Shown here: positions 3,701 through 36,900 of the stretch, one piece after another
Layout of the letters: the number at the start of each line of letters is the position of its first letter
Position numbering within the stretch: position 1 is the stretch's first letter
Source: Tubulanus polymorphus
Taxonomy: Eukaryota > Nemertea > Palaeonemertea > Tubulaniformes > Tubulanidae
Assembly (NCBI RefSeq): GCF_964204645.1
Contig: NC_134029.1
Location: forward strand, 1,497,001-1,561,000
DNA: 64,000 bases
Reading direction: 5' to 3'
Made by a program: the position numbers and the translations under genes
The notes under the pieces: model-generated
Databases searched by the model: none
What the model saw: only the letters and a program-made list of their open reading frames with translations
Told to the model about the DNA's origin: nothing

Positions 3701-6700
3701 ATATAAAAACGCATCTCTATAAACGAGATAACCATATATTACCACCGACGTAGATAGATATAGCTGTGACAAAACTGCATAGATTCAAATACGCGTAGGA
3801 ATTATATTTGAAATGTCAGATGTTTACGAGGATGAGGTACGTACATATCGTGGCAATACCTAGTTAAGAGACTTGATTTAAAAATAGAATTCAACTCAGT
3901 CTTTAGATTTAGACTTAAATCTCGATTTTGAACGACGTCGGACCCGAATTTGTTACACGACAATCATGATGAGTTCAGGGCCTGTGTTTATATGGTGTTT
4001 GCGACTGGGAGCCTCGGTACTGTTTTCGTATTCATGCAATGTCCCCCAACCTTAAACCTTACCCTTTAACTTTTATTCTGGTTTAGGAATATCAATTCCG
4101 GATCACAAACTCTCTACCGGCCGCTTCTATCGGGTTTATAGGTTTAAAGCGTATTCTGGTCAAAATCAGAAGAGAATTCCAGAATCGCTAGAGACCAATC
4201 AAAACCTGCCTTTAAGATTTCTTTGAATTTCCTTTGTTCAACAGGCGACCAGCTCCGCACTGGACGAAGAACCGAAGACGCCCGATCAAAGTTTAGAAAG
4301 TTTGGACGATATCGACGAAGCTGAAAGTGGAAACGAAGGACATCATCACAGCGGACTGAAACGTAAAAAGAGTAAGAGATTACTGTTCTCAAACACGCGG
4401 CTGATGCAGTTTAAAACTCAGGAATGGTGGAACAAATCTATACGTCGAAGTACGTCGAAGTTAACTGTTGACATCGATCAGTTAGTTACAAATTTGATTG
4501 ACATTTTGTCTGATATGATATGAATTATTTTAACCTGATTAACTTTGATCGCATTTGATTTTTCAGAGCACTCTGGTCAATTGCCTAAACAAACTTTCAA
4601 TTCGTATTCCCCAACTGAAACGAAACCAGGGGTAAGTGTTCGGCCTTTACAACCACGTGGGATACAGTTCCACAGTTCAGAATCCAGTTCCGCAGTTCAG
4701 AATCCAGTTCCACAGCTGTGAGTTAAGATTTTACTGAGAGTTAAATCAACGAAAATGTACAAATTTCCGCTCAATAGTTAGTTGATTGTAACTGGAATTG
4801 GATAATAAGTTCACAGTTGACTCTAGCTCACACTGTGGAACTGGATCTCATGTAATAATGACTCGGATTGACAACATTTCAGGAATGCGATAATCCAAAA
4901 GATATTAACGCTACGTTCTCTTCATTCTATTATTACAGAAAATATTTGGCGCGCGGTTATGTGATCAGATAGAACAGTGTGGAGATGTATACGGTGTATT
5001 CATCAAACTGATCGACGCTATTGAAAACAGTACAGAAGGGTTAGAAAGTCACGGTATCTACCGTATAGGGGGCGCTATGCCCGTCGTGAAAAAACTGAGG
5101 GCTCTTATTGAAGAAGGTGCGTGTTTCAATGCGTTAATCATGAGGTCTTTCTTCAAACTAGGACTCAGTTACACAGGTTCTATGTTTCCAATCTCAATTG
5201 CTGTGGATCTAGGTTCATGGGTCATTTGCAGGACAGCCAATGCTTAGATTTAAGACTTACTTAAGCCTTATATTGTGGTTCTATAACGAATCTAACAATT
5301 TAAGACCAGTCTTCGAATTTAAGACTACGTAACATTTGACTCCTTAAGTCATGCAACCGAGCTCAGAGTTCACGGGCTCGTGGTGCAACGGACAAGAACC
5401 AAGCATCAAAGCGATAATCATTTTTGTTTGTAGATTTTTCGACTGTAGAATACGATGAATATTCAGTGACGGTTCTCACTTCGATTCTGAAATCTTTCCT
5501 TCACGATTTACCGGAAACGCTGTTGACAGACGATCTGTACGACGAGTTCATCACGACGGCCGAGGCTGAGTCCGATCAGCAGGCTTTATGCCTTACAATT
5601 GTGATGAACAAATTGCCAGAAACGAATCGAAAAATTCTCGACCATCTTTTGACTCATTTAGCGAAGTAAGTTGAATATCCGTAACATGAAATCTCGACTA
5701 AGGAAGAATAAAGAATTCGAAAAGTTTCCTTGGGCTAGAAGTTAATTCGCCGTTTCGACTATCATCTTCATCGGGATTCCTGAAGATGAATAAGTATGAA
5801 TTCCTTATGATGACTATTGCTATAAAGTCGAAACATCGTATCATTCATAATGTCAACGACCTCTTTTGGAGCCTGACTTTCTATCTTAGGGTTGAATATC
5901 CTCGTTACAAAAGGGACTTATGCGATGCTTATCATGGTGTTCACAATGTCATTCTAAGCACATATTCTTGACGAATTATTCATTTCATTTGACAGAGTTT
6001 GTTCGAAGATCGAGAAGAATTCGATGGGACCGAGAAACGTAGCGATCTGTTTCGCACCGAATTTATTAACGAAACGTCAAATCGATATGCAAGAAACGTC
6101 CGAGCACAACGACAAGTTAATCAAGTAGGTTTTATTAGAAATTTGGAAATATTAGAATTATCTAAGAGTTGTAACGGAGAGTCGCTTTTGAATAACATGA
6201 AATCGTTAGCTTGATCTGGTAAATTTCAGGTCAATTATTTACCTTATGAAGCTACTGCACTAGTAGTGAAAGCCTGTGATTTCTAATAGAATCAAGTTAA
6301 CCCTACAAGTACTACATGTTACTCATTTAATCGGGGATATCAATGTATATAGTGTTTGAAAGCCATACGTTTCGTTCCTGGGTTTGCGACACTAATATAT
6401 AATAGATTAAGAATTTTGGGAGGGGCTGTTTTACAGAACGACAGCGGTCTGAGGCGCCATTAATCATCGCAATAACGCAATACTAATGAAACTTTATGAG
6501 ATCATTTGGTCGACTACTAAATAGACCCCTATAACACGATGGTCTGGTGCTGCTATATTAGAGTATGGCGTTTCTTTATCGTGTCGTTTCTATACTTTTC
6601 AGAATCCTATCCGTGTTGATAGAGGATAGGCTACAAAAGTTAATACGAACTGGTGAAATACGTATTGAAGTAGAACAGGAAATCGTTGATGTGATGGAGG

Positions 6701-8590: not shown

Positions 8591-11105
8591 GTAAACTATA
8601 TAAGCCCTATCTCTATCACTCTCGACTCGCTATATTTTACCGTGCCATCCTTCATGTATATCTTATCTACGCAAAATGCTCTAACAAAAAACCTACTTAT
8701 GTTAGTAAATAATACGAGTGTATTCGCGCCAGTGGGGACGTTAGATTTCCTTACGGTTTCGCAGTCCGTATCGCGCACTGGCGACTCGCTGTCTGTAGTA
8801 TGAAGATAACAACTACAACAACGCGTGTCACCGTCATCCAGCAAAAAACGAAATAATTTCCGTCGACGGCAAAAAACGGCAACGATTTCATTCAATGATT
8901 TCATTCGAAAACGTTCTATTATTTGTGATTACTGGCGACTCTATTGTGTTAATTGTAAATAGAAAAATCGGAACTACAGGAAATACGCAGTGGTTCCACG
9001 AAACCGTCTGCCCAACGATCGATCGATCGGTCACGCCGTCGACTCTGACAATGATGAAATTGAAGAAAACCGCACAATACGAAGAAAATGAAGTCACAAT
9101 CGTAGTCAAAACGTCACTACTCTCTTAGTTTTGAGAATGGCTCATAGAATTGAGTCTAAACGTCACTGCTCTCTTAGTTTTGAAAATGGCTCATAGAATT
9201 GAGTCTAAACGTCACTACTCTCTTAGTTTTGAAAATGTCTCATAGCATTGAGTCTAAACGTCACTACTCTCTTAGTTTCTCTACTGAAGTTTTTAATTGA
9301 ACTATGGACGTGGGAACCAACCACTGATACTTCGTAGTTATCGTCATCCTTTACTTGTGACCTGAAATCTATGTCAAAATACCATAAGTATTGCCGCCCA
9401 CGAGACGGTTTATCTGATAAGCTTCTAAAAGCGGGCGATTTAGATCGTATCGGAATCGGGGATCAGAAAAAAAGACTAACTTTTCGATGAATTGCGCTTA
9501 GATTTTTCAAGCTATTGTTCGCTCGCTACAAACAGATGGTCTGGATTTTACGAGTGTCGCAACTCGTGCCGATGGGTGACACCAGACGGATCAAGCCGTT
9601 CTGTCATTTTTGTGGATTTTGAAACTAGATTATTAAAACGGTATGTGCGTTGTATAGCGTTGGCCGATATGGTGACAAAATGACTTCAGACCGCTGTTCC
9701 CGTTAACATTTTCAGATCCCAGAGCCATTGAGTTCGCATGAAGCTCTCGCTAGTTAATTTCAAAAGTTTGGAACTCAATAGACTGTGAAATGAAACCGGG
9801 ATTCAATCCTAACACGCTTTGATTGACTATTTTTGCCACCAATCGTCTCAAAGATGAAAGAGTAAGTCGAATAAAACACTCCAATTCGTGTAAACTGCAG
9901 ATAAATGAAGACATCACATTTCAAAACGGTAGAATTTCTAAAAATGAAACCACAACGTTACGGCTGTTGACAAACACAAAAATCATCTATGACTCCTTCA
10001 TTTATCAAACGGTATATAAAGGTAAATCAGCGATGGCTTCTGATTCACGTAGTTTCAGTGAGAGATGATGCAGTAGTTTTAATCATCGAATCACTCACCG
10101 GAAAATCAACTCAATTCATCTGAGATAATCGATTCATGAGCGATGACATCGACGCCACAAATTGAAAAATTAATCACGATATCTTTAATCTCATCCGACC
10201 CCTCCCCTCTCATTCTCCTCTCCTCTCCTCCCTCTCTCAACATCTATTAACAACCAATAATAATTCACTATAACTTCCTTCTTTCAGTCTCAGCAGTGTA
10301 CAGGTTTACGTAGTTCCTCGCGGATGGAATCCATACTATCGCCACAATTTCTACATGGCACCGTATCTATAAACACCATGGCACGTCATTTTTAGAGTCG
10401 TATCATCGAGATGGATTTCTGCCACCCCGAGATCCACGGCCATGTTTGACCATATTTTCAATAATAATCAATGTAATCAACTTGTCGAAGATGATTACTC
10501 CAAGCATCTACTAAAATCAGTGCTTGAGAAGCGTGTTTGGATGTATTCCATTCTAAACAATAGTCGAAGATCCCGTTCTTTCAGTTCGAAAAAAAAATAT
10601 TGCCAATTATAAAAAGATATTAATACAAAACTGTGAATATATTTCGACATTTGTATGTTTTATTTTTTACAATAGAATATATATAATATATTTATATTTT
10701 TTGCCTATTTATAATATTATACATTTCTGGTCCTTACAACCAGTTTGATCACAATAAAGAAAATAAACGATTTATACATGTATTATTATAATATATTGAC
10801 AGCAGACATAATAAACATCGACGAACATTGAATTCTTATCATCAGTTTTCAATTCGAAGATAGTGTTTTGAAGAAAAGACTATTCAATAAAATATTACGA
10901 ATTAGAATTACTTTTCAGTCTAAGGAATTGTTTTTGTATACGATACAACCAGCAGATAAAGATGTATTAGAAAAATTGCTTGCTCTAATCTCAGAAGGTA
11001 AGGTCCACGCTTTCTCCACGCGACCTTGTTATACCCGAAATCCGAAAACCCACTCATCCCCACCGAAAGCGACACATTAAAAAGAGTTGATTAATTTCGG
11101 TATCA
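8591..11105. other. intergenic region between RhoGAP and HAND genes
   Basis: Holds a 49-bp tandem repeat (9111-9278) and AT-rich sequence near 10620-10820. The latter has minus-strand AATAAA-like signals that could serve HAND. Overlapping short frames on both strands at 8596-9128 show no domain I recognise and are not called as genes. Confidence 0.4.
9111..9278. repeat. 49-bp tandem repeat, about 3.4 copies
   Basis: ACGTCACT recurs at 9111, 9160, 9209 and 9258, exactly 49 bases apart. The intervening CTCTTAGTTTTGA and GGCTCATAGAATTGAG are nearly identical between copies. Confidence 0.9.
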
Positions 11106-15603
<4,498 letters not shown>

Positions 15604-15649
15604 CTTTGAACACAAACCAGAGTTTAGAGTTTGATAACTAAAACACAAC

Positions 15650-18600
15650 CGCGTCTGACAGCTATAACCGAGACTGCTATTATACTATTGAACGAGGTAC
15701 AAAGTGGTCCCAACTGCAAGTAGTCCGATATCATCACACTTTGACACCACCGAGTAAATTGCCAGGCTCAGACGACGCCAAACTGATTTTAAAATACTAT
15801 CCAGATTTAGAGGCAGTTTGCTTCGAAAAAAATAATCTGTCTCGCGCTGTTGAACGCTAAACGGAAGGTCTGCAATCGATAACGACCAATTAGCTCCCTC
15901 GGCTGAGCTACTGGGCGGGGCTTGTGGTTAGGTTGTTTATTTATTTGCGCCGCACAGTCGACGGTTTTATGTAAATTGTTTTGGTTTATAATGACTGTAC
16001 TGACGCCTACGGGGTTATCGTTCGTCGTCCTTTAGAATTCATTCATCAAACCGCGCACCGAAGACCACGAACTTCGGAGATCACATCGCGCGATAAGGGC
16101 CAATAAACGATAACTTCCGGGGCCGTTAAATCATTTGAATTACAAACAGAATTTACAATTCAATCATAACAATTCAAACTCCACAGTCTCCGGGAAAAAA
16201 AACACACAAATTAGATAAATTACGTCGTAAAGCAATTATCATTTTTTTACGTTATAGCATTCCAAAGAAAAAGCGCGTATTCAATATATATCGACGCGGG
16301 ATGAAACGGAACTGCGAAGGCATGACGTCACTGTCGCCCGAGGACACTTGGCAGTCGGAAGACTTGAAGTTCAACTTCTGCAAATGGAATATATTATTTG
16401 TCCTTAAATAACTACATATTTTGTATAGTTTAACAACTTGAGCTATCTGATCTGAGTTCTCCTTGGTTTAGCAGGCGGTCTCCCACATTGGCACATTTCA
16501 TCCTAGTAAGATATAAAACTGGGAATGAATTGTTATAAAGTTTGATGTTGTGGACTAAAAACGGCCGTCAGTTTCCACTGGTTTTTCTAATGAGCTTTCA
16601 TCACAGTTTTTAATGCCTCTGGTAACTGTACATTTCTCAGGTTGAGCTGCGTATAGGTCTCACTCGCAAAGATCTTCTCATTTTTGTATCTCGACGCAGT
16701 AGCAACTCGTGAATGTATTCGTTATTCTATATGTTTATCGTTTACTTAACTAATTAAGGCCAAACACATGTTAGAAATAGTTAAGCAGGTTTATATTCCT
16801 GACAGCTCAACAATTTATCCCAACACTTTTCACCGTCAGTCTTCATTATAACCAATAATCTATTTGTCATTTTTGAAGCGTGGTGCCAGAGATCGCGTTC
16901 CCTTCCACTATGGGGGGAAGCGGTAAGATCATTTGTCACTGGAAAAATGTGGTAGAGCCTATGGCGTTCTCGTGATGCGCAGTGAGGATTGAGAATGCCA
17001 CTAAATTTAGATATCAAATACTTTAATTACAATAAATAAGATTTGCAGTTTCGATTCAGGATTTGTCAACACTTTATTCAAACGCATCTTGTGCCATTTG
17101 ACGTAACTTTTGATGTGCAGCCCACGTGCGTGTGCCAGTGCGTCTATATTACGTAACTGGGTTTGGCGGGGGTCCCGCTGAAAGGCTTATTGCTGAAAGA
17201 GATATATCAATTTTGGCGGGAAACTTTACATCTCAGACTCATCTCATGATGTTTGAAATTCCTAGAATAGATTTATGTAACTTTTTGTATATACGTAATT
17301 TTTCACGCAATAAGTTTTTCTCTCTAAGTCTTTATCTCAGTTACATAGCTTTCGCAGAGGGTGGCACTCGGCAGCGAAATCATCTTTGAACAATTTATTC
17401 ATTACCTGAACCCTGTTTGAAGAGCTTTATAGAGTGGAGGAGGATTTTTTAAAATCTCGTTAAAAGACGGCGGTTGATATGATGTAAACAGAAGGTAGCT
17501 ATGCTGTAAATGTTTACGTGTGGCACTTAATCGTTTTTGAAATTGATGGTGCCAGAAATGCTTCACGCGCGTTCGCTCTTGTTATGACTACAGAATAAAT
17601 GTTATCATTTCGAGCAATAACTGTTTTCATAACGCCGCATAATATTAGACGGATTCGTCTGTTTCTTTTTTAATCCACGAGCGATTTTGCCCAGCGGGTT
17701 CGAATCCCGCGGTCGACTCGCATTTTTAGACGCGTTAAAACGAATATAATCGAATAAAGAATTATAGAATTAAAGAATAATTAGATTATCTATCTTTAGA
17801 AAACACAATTTTTTAAAACAATTTAAACAACTGTCAGTGCAATTTTAAAATGTCACATTTGAGTGAATTTCACCAATCCTTTGTTCAATGAAGCGATGTC
17901 ATGCGTTAAATAAGAAATTAGAATACAATCGTTCATTTCAGTAACTTTTTACTTTTAAAGACGCATTCAATCTAATGAATAATGATTATCGAATCCTTCA
18001 AAATAAAAAGAAAAATCCACTTTAATATATAGGGCCAGGGAAGGGATTGTCACCTCCTTTCTGTTAAGGATAAGAGATAACCTCAAGTGGTGGGATGGTT
18101 CGATAAAGGCTTTTGAGTGAATTTAATCCTCATGGGAGAATTTATCTAATAGAGAGGTGACCTCTAATAGTTTATCACACAGAATTTACTTGAACTCGAT
18201 CAGATCGTGGGAAGAACGATTCCCAGATTATAAATCATTCAACTTTAGCAGCAGTCAGCCTCCAATCCGGATTAGATCAACAGTCACCCGTAATCTTCAC
18301 ATTCAGAACGATCCTTTGTTTGAATTTGAGGGTCACGAAAGAATGGACCAGTTTCGACCGTTTTAGCCTGTGTCACCTAAACAAACTTTCTTTACCTATT
18401 TGATAAATCCTTCATGACACAGTTCGTGATCATTAGGAACATTCCATTCCCACTGTTCCCCATACGGGATTTTGGAGGGGTGTAACATTGTGGACGATAA
18501 ACGCTAAACTTCGGTCAGGGGCTTCGGGTAACCTCATAATAGTGAAACTGGAACCCTGGATAGTACTGACTCTTAAATTGCAATCAATCTCCGAAACTAA

Positions 18601-20249: not shown

Positions 20250-21436
20250 GTTTTATAGTTTCTGTAGTGTTTCAAGAATTTTTCCAGGGGGTCCGGTCCG
20301 GTCCGGCACGCCATTACTGGTGTTATTATTGGTGAGTACGAATACGAATACGAATACGAATATTTATTACACTCCAACCATTTCCATGGTATATGGAGGA
20401 AAAAAAACAGTATTTACAATTATTTACAAAAACAGTAGATAAAAGCACTTTGAAACATAACAAACGTTATATACAACATACTATTTACACACACTACCGG
20501 AGGGATCTATATACATCCAGACCTAATTTGATAAATTTAGCAAGTTTAAAAGTTGGATTTTTTAAAACATCAAGATTCCGAAAGGTATTTGAATTTAGGT
20601 AGCTTTCACGGAATACGGTAAGTAATTTACAGTCAAAAATGAAATGTAGTTCGTCGCCTAAAACGTTACAGGTGGGGCATAATCTATCGGTTCTCGGTGG
20701 ATGGAGATTTGACAATTTATTTACAGGTAGGAGATAAGACCCAATCCTGAACTGGAATAAGCTGGTCACTAAGTCGTCATCAAGCCGATTTATATAGTTT
20801 TCAAATTTGATATCCTTCTTATATTGTCTAAAATTAATGTATAACGGGTTATTATTTAGCCTAAATTCTGTCTCTTGCACATGCTGATCACGGAGTAAAC
20901 GGTGTAATTGTTTTGGAGAAGTCCTAGAGTTTACCATAGATTGTTGTGTCCATATATACGAAAGGCCACAGTCATCAAAAGTCTTCTTAATAAATAACAG
21001 CCAGGGGCTCTTAAACCTATCATTCAGATATAAATTATAAGATATCTTATAGAGAATTGAACTAAGTTTACTTTGTTTGCACTCTATCGTTTTGACCCAA
21101 AAATTAATCATTCTACGCTTTACGCTTATATACATAGGATAACGTCCTAACTCCGCTAATACTTGAAGGTTATGGGAATATTTTGTAACTTTCATGATAA
21201 TTTTACAAAATAAACAGTGGAGGTTTTCTAATAAGTCAAGGTTTTCATATCCCCAGATTTCGCAACCGTACAACGCGATAGGAGCGACGCACATGTCAAA
21301 TAGTTTAAACATTACATCTACTGGAAGTTTCAAACGTCTGCCCTTTTGAATAATAGAAAACATAGCTTTCATAGCTTTATCATAGAGAAATTTTTTTGCT
21401 TTAGCGAAACTACCGTTCCAATTGAATTTGACCAAT
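20250..21436 (-). mobile_element. 5'-truncated non-LTR (LINE) retrotransposon, 3' end
   Basis: A 313-residue frame (21435-20494) matches the C-terminal part of LINE reverse-transcriptase polyproteins. It has the thumb-like YGCEIWGYENLDLLENLH block, VLAELGRYPMYISVKRRM and a terminal zinc-knuckle CPTCNVLGDELHFIFDC. The frame is closed upstream by a TAG about 15 bases before the first usable codon, so the endonuclease and catalytic RT are missing. Downstream of the stop the element appears to end in a GTATTC microsatellite (20335-20362), the kind of tail seen in L2/CR1-like LINEs. The clade call is tentative. It is an immobile fragment. Confidence 0.8.
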
Positions 21437-21439
21437 AAC

Positions 21440-21568
21440 TGCTGCCCCTATATACGTAATAAGCGGTGAAAATGTGAACTAACTCGACTATCATTATATT
21501 CCTACTGTGGCATGTGGGTAATAAGTTAGTTCGCACATTCACCGTCAACTATGTGTATAGAGGCAGCA
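21440..21568. mobile_element. foldback MITE at the 5' edge of the LINE fragment
   Basis: The left arm TGCTGCCCCTATATAC...GCGGTGAAAATGTG and the right arm CACATTCACCGTC...GTATAGAGGCAGCA are inverted and largely complementary. It has no coding capacity. It abuts the truncated LINE and may mark the insertion site or a rearrangement. Confidence 0.55.
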
Positions 21569-33928: not shown

Positions 33929-36900
33929 CAGCAGTATCATCACTGTCATAAACAACAGCAGAATAATAACTGTTCAACTATAGATCATCAGTCACTGGCA
34001 GCATCGCAACCAGCAGCAGATCAAAATATTCAGGTTCGATGCGTTGAATCAAATTATCTTCTTTAACAGGGGCAGATCTACGGTCTGCTTCAGATAGGGG
34101 TGCACCGCTAAAATAGGGCAGCCACATATATAATTGGAAGGGCATCCACAAAGAAAACTCATCGGAAAGAATTAACTCATTTTTTGGAAATACAGAGAAG
34201 CAGCTTACGTATCTTAGGTGCCAATTTAATATTTGTCATTTTCCCATAAAATTACAACTCAACATTATAAGGAGATGGTGTCCACCCCTGCACCCTCCCC
34301 TTTGATCCACCCCTGTAAAGAAGAAACTTGCCCAAGATTTTTACAAATTGATTCAAGGATCAGAAAGTCCTGAGACGCAATGAATATCGCGTTAGTTTTG
34401 TATTTCAGATTCGTCCTCTTGTTTTACACACTTGTTTCTGGGAAGGATGTCGTTTATTCTTCGAGAAATTAGAAGAATTAGTTTATCACGTGACGACTGC
34501 CCATGTGAAACTAGATTCAAACATGGAGTATGTTTGTATGTGGGACGGTTGTACGAGGAAGCGTAAAGGTTTTAACGCCAGGTTTGTCCAAGTATTTATT
34601 CCACCTTCTCTTAATTTCGAATTAATTGTAGAATTTGAACTAATTAAGAATGATAAGATAAAATCCCACTATTTACAGATTAAAAGAATTTAAAAACAAG
34701 AATTTATTTATTAAATCTAAAATATTTAAAAGACACGACGTTTCGATCTCACCCTAAAGATCATCGTCAGGTGTGAGAAATAGGCTTAAAACAGGGGTAT
34801 ATATACTTACTCAATTAACCTGTCCTCCTCTGTTTATATACCCCTGTTTTAAGTCTATTTCTCACACCTGACGATGATCTCTAGGGTGAGATCGAAACGT
34901 CGTGTCTTTTAAATATTTTAGATTTAATAAATAAATTCTTGTTTTTAAATTCTTTTAATCTGTAAATAATGGGATTTTATCTTATTATCCGTTCACCACG
35001 TTTGAGTGTGGTTATCGTTCTATTAATTAAGAATGAATTGTATTTTGTAGGTATAAGATTCTAGTACATTTGCGAATACACACTAATGAAAGACCGCATC
35101 AATGTGAAATATGTAAGAAGACTTTCACCAGAGTTGAAAATCTGAAAATTCATAATCGTTGTCACACAGGTATGTGCTGTATTTCCTCACTCGGGCAGGT
35201 CACAGGTACTTAGAAGCTGGTTACATAGCGATAATTAAAAGTTCATTGTTACTATGGTATTAATAATAATAATAATAATTAGTGCTTATATAGCGCCTTT
35301 CCAATGAATGCTCAAAGCGCTGTCACTCAATTATTACCCAGCTTCTGTTACCAATCCAGTACATTCTTACTCTCCCTGGGGAGATGCAACACCGATACGC
35401 TGCAGAGTGATCAAGGCGTCGTCAGCCAGTAGCAATTGTGAATTAATGCCTTGCCTAAGGACACTACAGCACAGCCGGGGTTCGAACACACAACCTCCCG
35501 ATTGGGGGGCGAGCACTCTACCACTAAGCCACACTGCTCCACAAGCCACACTGCTGGTATTTATCCAGCGGTCATCTAGAAATCAACATTTGAGCAATTG
35601 GGCCCTGAATTTTCAGTTTGATGATTAATAATCGTCATTGCGAAGTTTTTGGAAGTAATTTGACTGATAGGTGTTAAATGTATTACAGGTGAAAAGCCGT
35701 ATGTTTGTCCGTATGAAGGATGTATGAAAGCGTACGCGAACTCGAGCGACCGATTTAAACACGTACGTACTCACGCTCTACAGCAGCCATACTGCTGTAA
35801 GATGCCCGGTTGTAATAAACGTTACACCGACCCGAGCACGTTGAGGAAACACGTACGAGCTCATAAACACTATACAACGCGACCGGAAATCGGGGAATCC
35901 CCGCCTAAACGACCGCGTCTCATCGGAGCAGAGATACCGATCTTACCGGCTTCTCAAATCGCTCAACAATTAATGACTGTCGATAATTCGTCTTTCGGTT
36001 CGGGTTTCAATACGAGACACAAGGATTTTACACCGCTCTTAACAGCGCCATCTATTAGTAGAACGAGACGTGATCACATTCTCGAAACGAACGCTTCTTC
36101 AAAAACTAGCGACGAAAATAAAACTGATTTCGTTCGTAAACTGACGTCGTCTCGTTGTAATTCGAGAATCATCGCGACCGAATCGGGTAAAATCGCCGAA
36201 CCTCAGGTGCTCAGTCCGACGTTTATAGTGTTAACCGACGGCACTACGAACACACCGCCAAATCTGACAAACGAAGTTGTCAAAGTCGAAAAAATCGAAC
36301 AAAAACCGTTTGTGAATACTCGTAACGAGTCATCATCGTTTTCATCATCGCAATCATCATCGTCACTTGCAACGACGGAGCAGACGGGTAAGAGTAAAGT
36401 ACGGACAGCGATCAGGTCGCTATTAAACTCGCGCCTGAATACGGACACCGATACAGATACGAGCACCGTGCAATCGGTGATGAAATCATTATTCAACCCG
36501 GTCGTCGACAACAATACAATCAGTTGTTGTTACCCGGCAACGACGACGAGAGAATCGTCGCCGATGTTGTTTAATACGTCAAGCGGGGGTAACCGTGGCG
36601 ACGAGTTAACAATTAGATCGATCATGAGAACGATGTTTACGTCGGAGAATTCGAATAACAGTTCAGTGATATCACAGAACGAGTCGTCGACCGGCGAGTC
36701 GTCGACTAGTGGCGAGTCGTTAACCGTTCATGCTATTCTGAAATCGTTACACACATTCATGGGTTCGTCATCGTTACCTGGTTCTCTGCCCGGTTCATTG
36801 CCCGGTTCTCCGCTACCCGGAATATTCCTTTTGAATTCTGAATCGGATCCAGAAAATAGTTTAGAATCGACGACGACAACTTGTCGAAATGAGGATAAAT

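Follow-up and report, generated by a model that had tools for sequence, protein, structure and literature searches.

Head-to-head insertions of Penelope-like element 3' ends with a minimal hammerhead motif in Tubulanus polymorphus

The element described here probably arose when the 3' end of a GIY-YIG Penelope-like element (PLE) was inserted twice, head to head, with both nicked target strands priming reverse transcription (RT). It was retrieved from a window of 64,000 nucleotides, the whole stretch of DNA that was analyzed (Tubulanus polymorphus, GCF_964204645.1, NC_134029.1, positions 1,497,001 to 1,561,000, forward strand). A broader reading is that two-site integration is obligate, with RT start sites A and B used one per nicked strand, and that dispersed minimal hammerheads are largely inserted 5' ends of PLE mRNA. 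We put this broader reading forward tentatively, at slightly less than an even chance.

The window element and its parent family

The window element contains 370 bp (34654-35023) between 13-bp direct repeats of TAATTAAGAATGA, as the first-pass annotation of this DNA had described it. That annotation also described two near-identical inverted arms. These were confirmed at 34650-34806 and 34832-34988; they are 157 nt each and 97% complementary, with a spacing of 25 nt. The element contains the following features.

34641-34653, no strand: left target-site duplication (TSD), TAATTAAGAATGA, 13 bp
34654-34806, - strand: antisense arm, a PLE 3' end truncated on its 5' side at reference -36; its outer end is RT start site A, without the tail
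34737-34770, - strand: left-arm hammerhead core, with GATCTT as the 5' strand of stem II and one U.G pair
34807-35023, + strand: sense arm, a PLE 3' end truncated at reference -61, with the tail; its outer end is RT start site B
34833-34840, + strand: TATA-like TTTATATA (TATATATA in the C75 copy), putative role; its first base is 31 nt 5' of the proposed +1
34862-34868, + strand: initiator-like TCACACC, putative role
34864, + strand: proposed mRNA +1, an A that is the first base of stem I
34864-34905, + strand: minimal type I-like hammerhead (stem I ACAC/GTGT, CTGACGA, extra T, stem II, GAAACGTC)
34989-35023, + strand: tail between RT start sites A and B, holding a CCAC...GTGG stem-loop found by eye
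35024-35036, no strand: right TSD, TAATTAAGAATGA, 13 bp

On the + strand the right arm reads ACAC-CTGACGA-T-GATCTC-TAGGGT-GAGATC-GAAACGTC-GTGT, with CTGACGA at 34868. It contains the features of a minimal type I hammerhead: CUGANGA, stem II, GAAA, and UH before stem I. Cleavage would be expected after C 34901. The left arm reads like it on the - strand except for GATCTT in stem II. The stem GATCTC/GAGATC, earlier assigned to each arm, is therefore present in the right arm and not in the left, where the last pair is U.G.

The insertion sits in a short intron (window 34582-35050) of a C2H2 zinc-finger gene, presumably of the GLI/GLIS type. An apparent 3' splice site lies 14 bp beyond the end of the right duplication. 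The intron minus the insert and one duplication would be 86 bp. Two other open frames in the window were identified by eye on the - strand. One (20494-21447) resembles the C-terminal part of a LINE reverse transcriptase, and the other (14962-15684) contains a Hand-like bHLH domain.

From its sequence, we identify the arm as pLTR plus tail, the 3' terminal repeat of a GIY-YIG PLE. In the copy on contig C75 it lies 3' of open frames on the same strand that encode RYVDDILSL, a YVDD-type RT motif, and the GIY-YIG motif GVYKIPCFGCDKIYFGETGR. A link to Penelope elements had been suggested for the window element, together with a genome search for PLE copies sharing the arm, and the C75 copy bears out the link. 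Pfam matched the C75 frames to GIY-YIG at E 0.001 (19.8 bits; cut-off, 22.6) and to RVT_1 at E 0.003 (17.7 bits; cut-off, 29.6). These matches appeared at laxer E, and none was listed for the C75 frames at the default limit of E 0.001. Because both lie below Pfam's cut-offs, the naming of the element rests also on motifs and layout. The traits of PLEs found here are RT plus a GIY-YIG endonuclease in related longer copies, a pLTR with an optional 30- to 40-bp tail, and TSDs at AT-rich sites.

The endonuclease frame had at least 151 matches (150 scored of 1093 candidates). Related copies, which share about 51% identity with the C75 endonuclease, have open frames that reach 841 aa. In many of them the frames are 817 to 841 aa and the scores identical, so they are perhaps recently active. 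The stretch C75:1-9900 is built of head-to-tail units of about 4494 bp, each with a PLE 3' fragment and its pLTR. Each unit holds a degenerate hammerhead-like TTGGGAATGATCTCTAGTAAGAGATGGAAGCGTC (414-447, 4908-4941, and 9403-9436, + strand), on the strand opposite the PLE fragment.

Paired insertions, their ends, and their nicks

Sixty loci (L029-L088) were sampled from 100 exact places listed in order from C1 to C3. They cover 63 of the 100 places (32/32 in C1 and 31/33 in C2), with close pairs counted once; the last two C2 places and all 35 C3 places fall outside the sample. An exact hammerhead was required, so at least one arm of each locus reaches the hammerhead by selection. Positions are counted from the first base of CTGACGA (position 0). 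An end at 110-126 was scored as A, and an end at 140 or more with the tail as B.

A second, inverted arm was retrieved from 42 of the 60 loci (from 2 of them by a short signature beside the duplication). The 42 head-to-head pairs comprised 38 A/B, 3 B/other (89, 105, and 108), 1 scored A/A, and no B/B. By eye, the left end of the pair scored A/A (L041) starts as B with a deletion. Exactly one B end was present in 41 of the 42 pairs (binomial against 0.5, P = 2e-11). Sense arms ended at 110-126 or at 140 or more in 55/60 loci, and at 89, 96, 103, 105, or 108 in the others. No second arm was seen in 18 loci; of these, L073 and L076 extend to the edge of the sequence retrieved for them.

Duplications of at least 9 bp were found in 41/60 loci, and 32 of these are 11 to 14 bp. 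The TSDs are 72% AT and the flanks 65% (34 insertions). The inner junctions vary between loci, with short overlaps or filler. The 18-bp duplication of L061 does not adjoin its left arm; this direct repeat spans the pair and about 250 bp more upstream. L030 has additional same-family arms, inverted in order, near the first pair and about 1.2 to 1.5 kb upstream of its hammerhead. A looser end-scan allowing 4 mismatches gave 25 B/A, 14 A/B, 7 A/A, 1 B/B, and 13 others (n = 60). It was replaced by the stricter scoring because of chance A calls in AT-rich flanks.

Eight extra loci were selected by similarity to the window, outside the sample. They contained 7 A/B pairs (window included) and one B/B pair (L018). 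Repeats of at least 8 bp flank 5 of the 8, and no flanking duplication was found at L018, L027, or L028. L015 was left unscored and resembles a longer head-to-head pair running beyond the sequence retrieved for it. A second family, with a GGCTAAC/GTTAGCC hammerhead, was represented by 5 loci, 4 of them picked for paired hammerheads. By eye, 4/5 are A/B (L089, L090, L091, and L095); in L092 the tail is at the left end and the right side is broken. Flanking repeats are 10 bp at L089, 11 bp at L091, and 11 bp at L095, and none was found at L090. Protein-level neighbors, among the matches listed, were oriented 13 -/+, 4 -/-, 1 +/+, and 0 +/- within 8 kb. Within 15 kb, again among the matches listed, they were 14 -/+, 6 -/-, 1 +/+, and 1 +/-.

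The nicks were aligned in 34 two-armed insertions, oriented with the B end rightward. On the A-primed strand, the first base after the nick (+1) is G in 16/34 and T in 10/34, and the next three positions contain T in 22, 23, and 19 of 34. On the B-primed strand, +1 is T in 15/34 and G in 9/34, and the next three positions contain T in 21, 24, and 15 of 34. The excess of T at +2 and +3 on both strands had P values of 5e-4 to 8e-6 against an assumed background T of 0.33. G at +1 on the B-primed strand was not significant (9/34, P 0.11, with an assumed background G of 0.17). Both nicks are TTT-rich, and G at +1 is marked on the A-primed strand only. The resemblance between the two nick motifs suggests that both cuts are the work of a single enzyme.

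We infer the following order of steps. The endonuclease would make a nick in each target strand, the two lying about 13 bp from each other at TTT-rich sites. From the 3' OH at one nick, RT would start on the element RNA at internal site A, which precedes the tail hairpin; from the 3' OH at the other, it would start at the adjacent internal site B, which follows the hairpin. Each cDNA would extend toward the RNA 5' end, stopping there or earlier. Joining of the two cDNA ends, often through filler or a short run of matching bases, would then leave an inverted pair that has a single tail and short duplications. RT starting about 125 nt (A) or about 160 nt (B) from +1 would explain why the hammerhead arm is only about 125 to 160 bp in most sampled copies. 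The window copy would derive from a longer RNA. If A and B are read strictly one per strand, one RNA hairpin may be held between two subunits of a protein dimer and read twice, and the tail would record which strand was which.

The main alternative for the pairs is self-priming, in which one cDNA (or antisense RNA) folds back and is copied into an inverted repeat. It was proposed for rotifer Penelope elements (Arkhipova et al. 2013, PMC3846280), and the cited part of that paper reads head-to-head pairs and palindromic junctions in this way. Relatedness of the arms was compared in 26 arm pairs, 6 of them from similarity-selected loci and with three-armed L030 excluded. Arms are closer within a pair (median distance 0.029) than across loci (0.064), as self-priming would have it. 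Three of the 26 pairs share 4 rare variants in all (mean 0.5 and maximum 3 in 300 shuffles). Such sharing is expected from arms copied one off the other as well. The paired arm is the nearest neighbor on both sides in 1/26 pairs. Self-priming predicts a repeated tail, whereas 38/42 pairs have the tail at one end and an A end at the other, and it is disfavored by this prediction of equal tails. The TTT-rich motif at both nicks is as expected of primers cut by the element. Single-armed, TSD-flanked insertions ending at A also exist (L055 and L084), which makes A look like an independent start site. We consider self-priming unlikely.

The hammerhead motif and the RNA 5' end

The 34-nt core of the hammerhead had 549 + 526 = 1075 matches in the 268-Mb genome at up to 3 mismatches; its reversed control had 0 + 0 under the same limit. 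For the pattern CTGATGA...GAAACGTC there were 138 + 134 genome matches, compared with 4 + 4 in the control search. Minimal type I hammerheads of PLEs are reportedly treated by Lunse et al. (2017) and by Cervera and de la Pena (2014). The Rfam check proposed with the first-pass annotation gave no support: at the gathering threshold, no hammerhead family matched the whole window, and at E up to 10, 34600-35080 gave no hammerhead, with sub-threshold long-hairpin and other families only.

Covariation was scored in 40 distinct 34-nt cores, 39 from the CTGATGA-pattern matches listed plus that of the window; cores of other lengths were excluded. The bases of the core are set by the search pattern, so their constancy carries no weight. 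In stem II, both sides change in 7/7 pairs. Double-sided changes occupy 49 cells, compared with 14.7 in shuffles. Stem II cells pair in 87.9% (71.2% in shuffles), and the covariation score is 0.545 (0.262 shuffled). None of 500 shuffles reached any of these three values. The number of double-change pairs is not exceptional for stem II in the 40 cores (42/500 shuffles reach it), nor is the number of further pair types (46/500). When the partner strand was slid, paired cells, changed cells, and covariation score dropped at every one of six slides; double-change pairs were equalled at one slide and pair types at another. Both the hammerhead core proposed for the window element and the covariation of stem II looked for among genomic copies are upheld by these scores.

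A T lies between CTGANGA and stem II in 38/40 cores. This extra base had been raised as a reason to doubt activity. That doubt is partly answered: the same extra U is present in the second family, in a third family (L096-L098, fetched 3' end), and in the PLE hammerhead of the anole. A viroid hammerhead with an additional core nucleotide has reportedly been described. Since stem II covaries and the published anole PLE ribozyme has the extra base as well, the hammerhead is real as a motif, and we regard it as a genuine motif of PLEs.

In the folding models, the minimum-energy monomer fold is a plain hairpin (-15.8 kcal/mol), and stems I and II alone give -10.2 kcal/mol. The modeled hammerhead dimer (-21.5 kcal/mol) is less stable than two hairpins (-31.6 kcal/mol). 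Because the lone RNA prefers the hairpin and the dimer is less stable, ribozyme activity in these copies, if any, may depend on protein, as in the anole. These energies, and the missing excess of insertion starts at the cut site described below, would also fit a signature that is a hairpin only, with GACG/CGUC as an extended stem and no ribozyme function. A plain hairpin does not account well for the double-sided changes in all 7 pairs of stem II and in 49 cells. In the cited part of PMC11167929, the anole PLE ribozyme, which shares this layout, cleaves when its protein is present, and conserved minimal hammerheads in PLEs are described in the cited parts of two reviews (PMC7761336 and PMC6155905). 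We judge the hairpin-only account improbable.

Sense arms start at -16 to 0 in 54/60 sampled loci and at -6 to -4 in 33; these starts were taken from the ends of BLAST alignments and are accurate to within a few bases. Long copies contain TATATATA at -35 to -28 and TCACACC around -4, as counted by eye. This is the usual spacing of a TATA box and an initiator. From these sites we infer -4, where stem I begins, as the first base of the RNA. Short copies would be cDNAs running from the RT start to this RNA 5' end. This would put the ribozyme right at the 5' end of the proposed transcript, and cutting there would take off the cap. Partner arms in the sample start anywhere from -16 to 124. They show no peak at the hammerhead cut: 0/38 start at 32-36 and 3 start at 28-37. 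Nested counts in one subfamily at up to 2 mismatches (291, 281, and 267) show no step at the cut. With no excess of starts there, the inserted templates carry no mark of hammerhead cleavage. Among the 38 A/B pairs, the A arm alone reaches the 5' boundary in 19, the B arm alone in 6, and both arms in 13. This count includes starts set by hand for L033 and L044 and three gapped arms counted as reaching, and its P of 0.015 is too weak to order the steps.

A transcript across both arms of the window element contains one sense and one antisense copy and is predicted to fold as a long hairpin (-238.7 kcal/mol), so it carries one hammerhead, not two. The first-pass annotation had taken the inverted arms as the design of a non-autonomous element. 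The pairs read here differ in junctions and arm lengths, so each is taken as a separate insertion product, and that interpretation is not supported. The window element alone, with its TSDs, near-identical arms, and hammerhead motifs, could suggest a retrozyme-like family moving as an inverted unit with two hammerheads acting together, and this is very improbable given that central junctions are not shared among the pairs read, that no transcript has both hammerheads in sense, and that the paired transcript folds as that long hairpin.

Comparison with known systems

Inverted pLTRs with one tail, TSDs, and PLE hammerheads have already been described. The present analysis adds the count of A/B ends, the shared nick motif, and 5' ends that cluster at a promoter-like +1 at the hammerhead. 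In the open-licence PMC papers that were searched, neither a count of A/B pairing nor an explanation of short dispersed hammerheads as insertions of PLE 5' ends came up. The formation of the second end in PLEs has a published self-priming reading and, later, in vitro priming of both strands. Under double priming, the short copies would be a natural record of this second-end step, with one start site per end and like nick motifs. The same reading accounts simply for the short hammerhead motifs scattered through this genome.

Retrozymes, in the cited part of PMC7761336, are hammerhead-bearing and non-coding and form direct or tandem repeats via circular RNA; those of plants are flanked by TSDs. 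The window element is likewise hammerhead-bearing and non-coding, and it is TSD-flanked like those of plants. Unlike retrozymes as described there, it is an inverted pair, without direct tandem hammerhead repeats, and gives no sign of cleaved templates.

The minimal type I hammerheads of PLEs lack helix III, contain a CUGANGA and GAAAC core, and are dispersed by the thousands in animal genomes, according to the cited parts of PMC7761336 and PMC6155905. The motif described here resembles them in all three respects. It differs from those accounts, as far as cited, in that most sampled copies are explained as short insertions of the apparent PLE RNA 5' end.

The Penelope of Adineta vaga has inverted head-to-head pLTRs with a 31-bp tail optional at one pLTR, TSDs of 8, 9, and 10 bp, and a TATA and Inr-like promoter in the pLTR (PMC3846280, in the part cited). 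The copies described here are like it in the inverted pLTRs, the one tail, the TSDs, and the TATA/Inr-like promoter. The cited part of that paper treats individual copies and explains them by self-priming, whereas here 42/60 loci are pairs and their A/B ends were counted. Here the nick motif is also shared, and most hammerhead arms span only +1 to the RT start.

The anole PLE (Poseidon, PAc, Anolis carolinensis) has a protein that both cuts and extends the two strands (Frangieh et al. 2024, PMC11167929, in the part cited). RT begins there at two adjacent internal sites bounding the tail. The PAc hammerhead cleaves when PLE protein is added, and hammerhead mutants inserted equally well in the same source. 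The absence of a cleavage mark in the inserted templates agrees with this result, to the extent cited. Both systems are GIY-YIG PLEs with two RT starts bounding a tail and an extra U in the hammerhead. RT starts 82 to 89 nt after the cut in PAc, as cited, and about 86 nt after it here (site A). In the cited in vitro assay, the RT start did not differ between strands, whereas the genomic products here use one site per end. Strict A/B pairing is therefore not predicted by the anole assay, and the division of A and B between strands is the new point relative to it.
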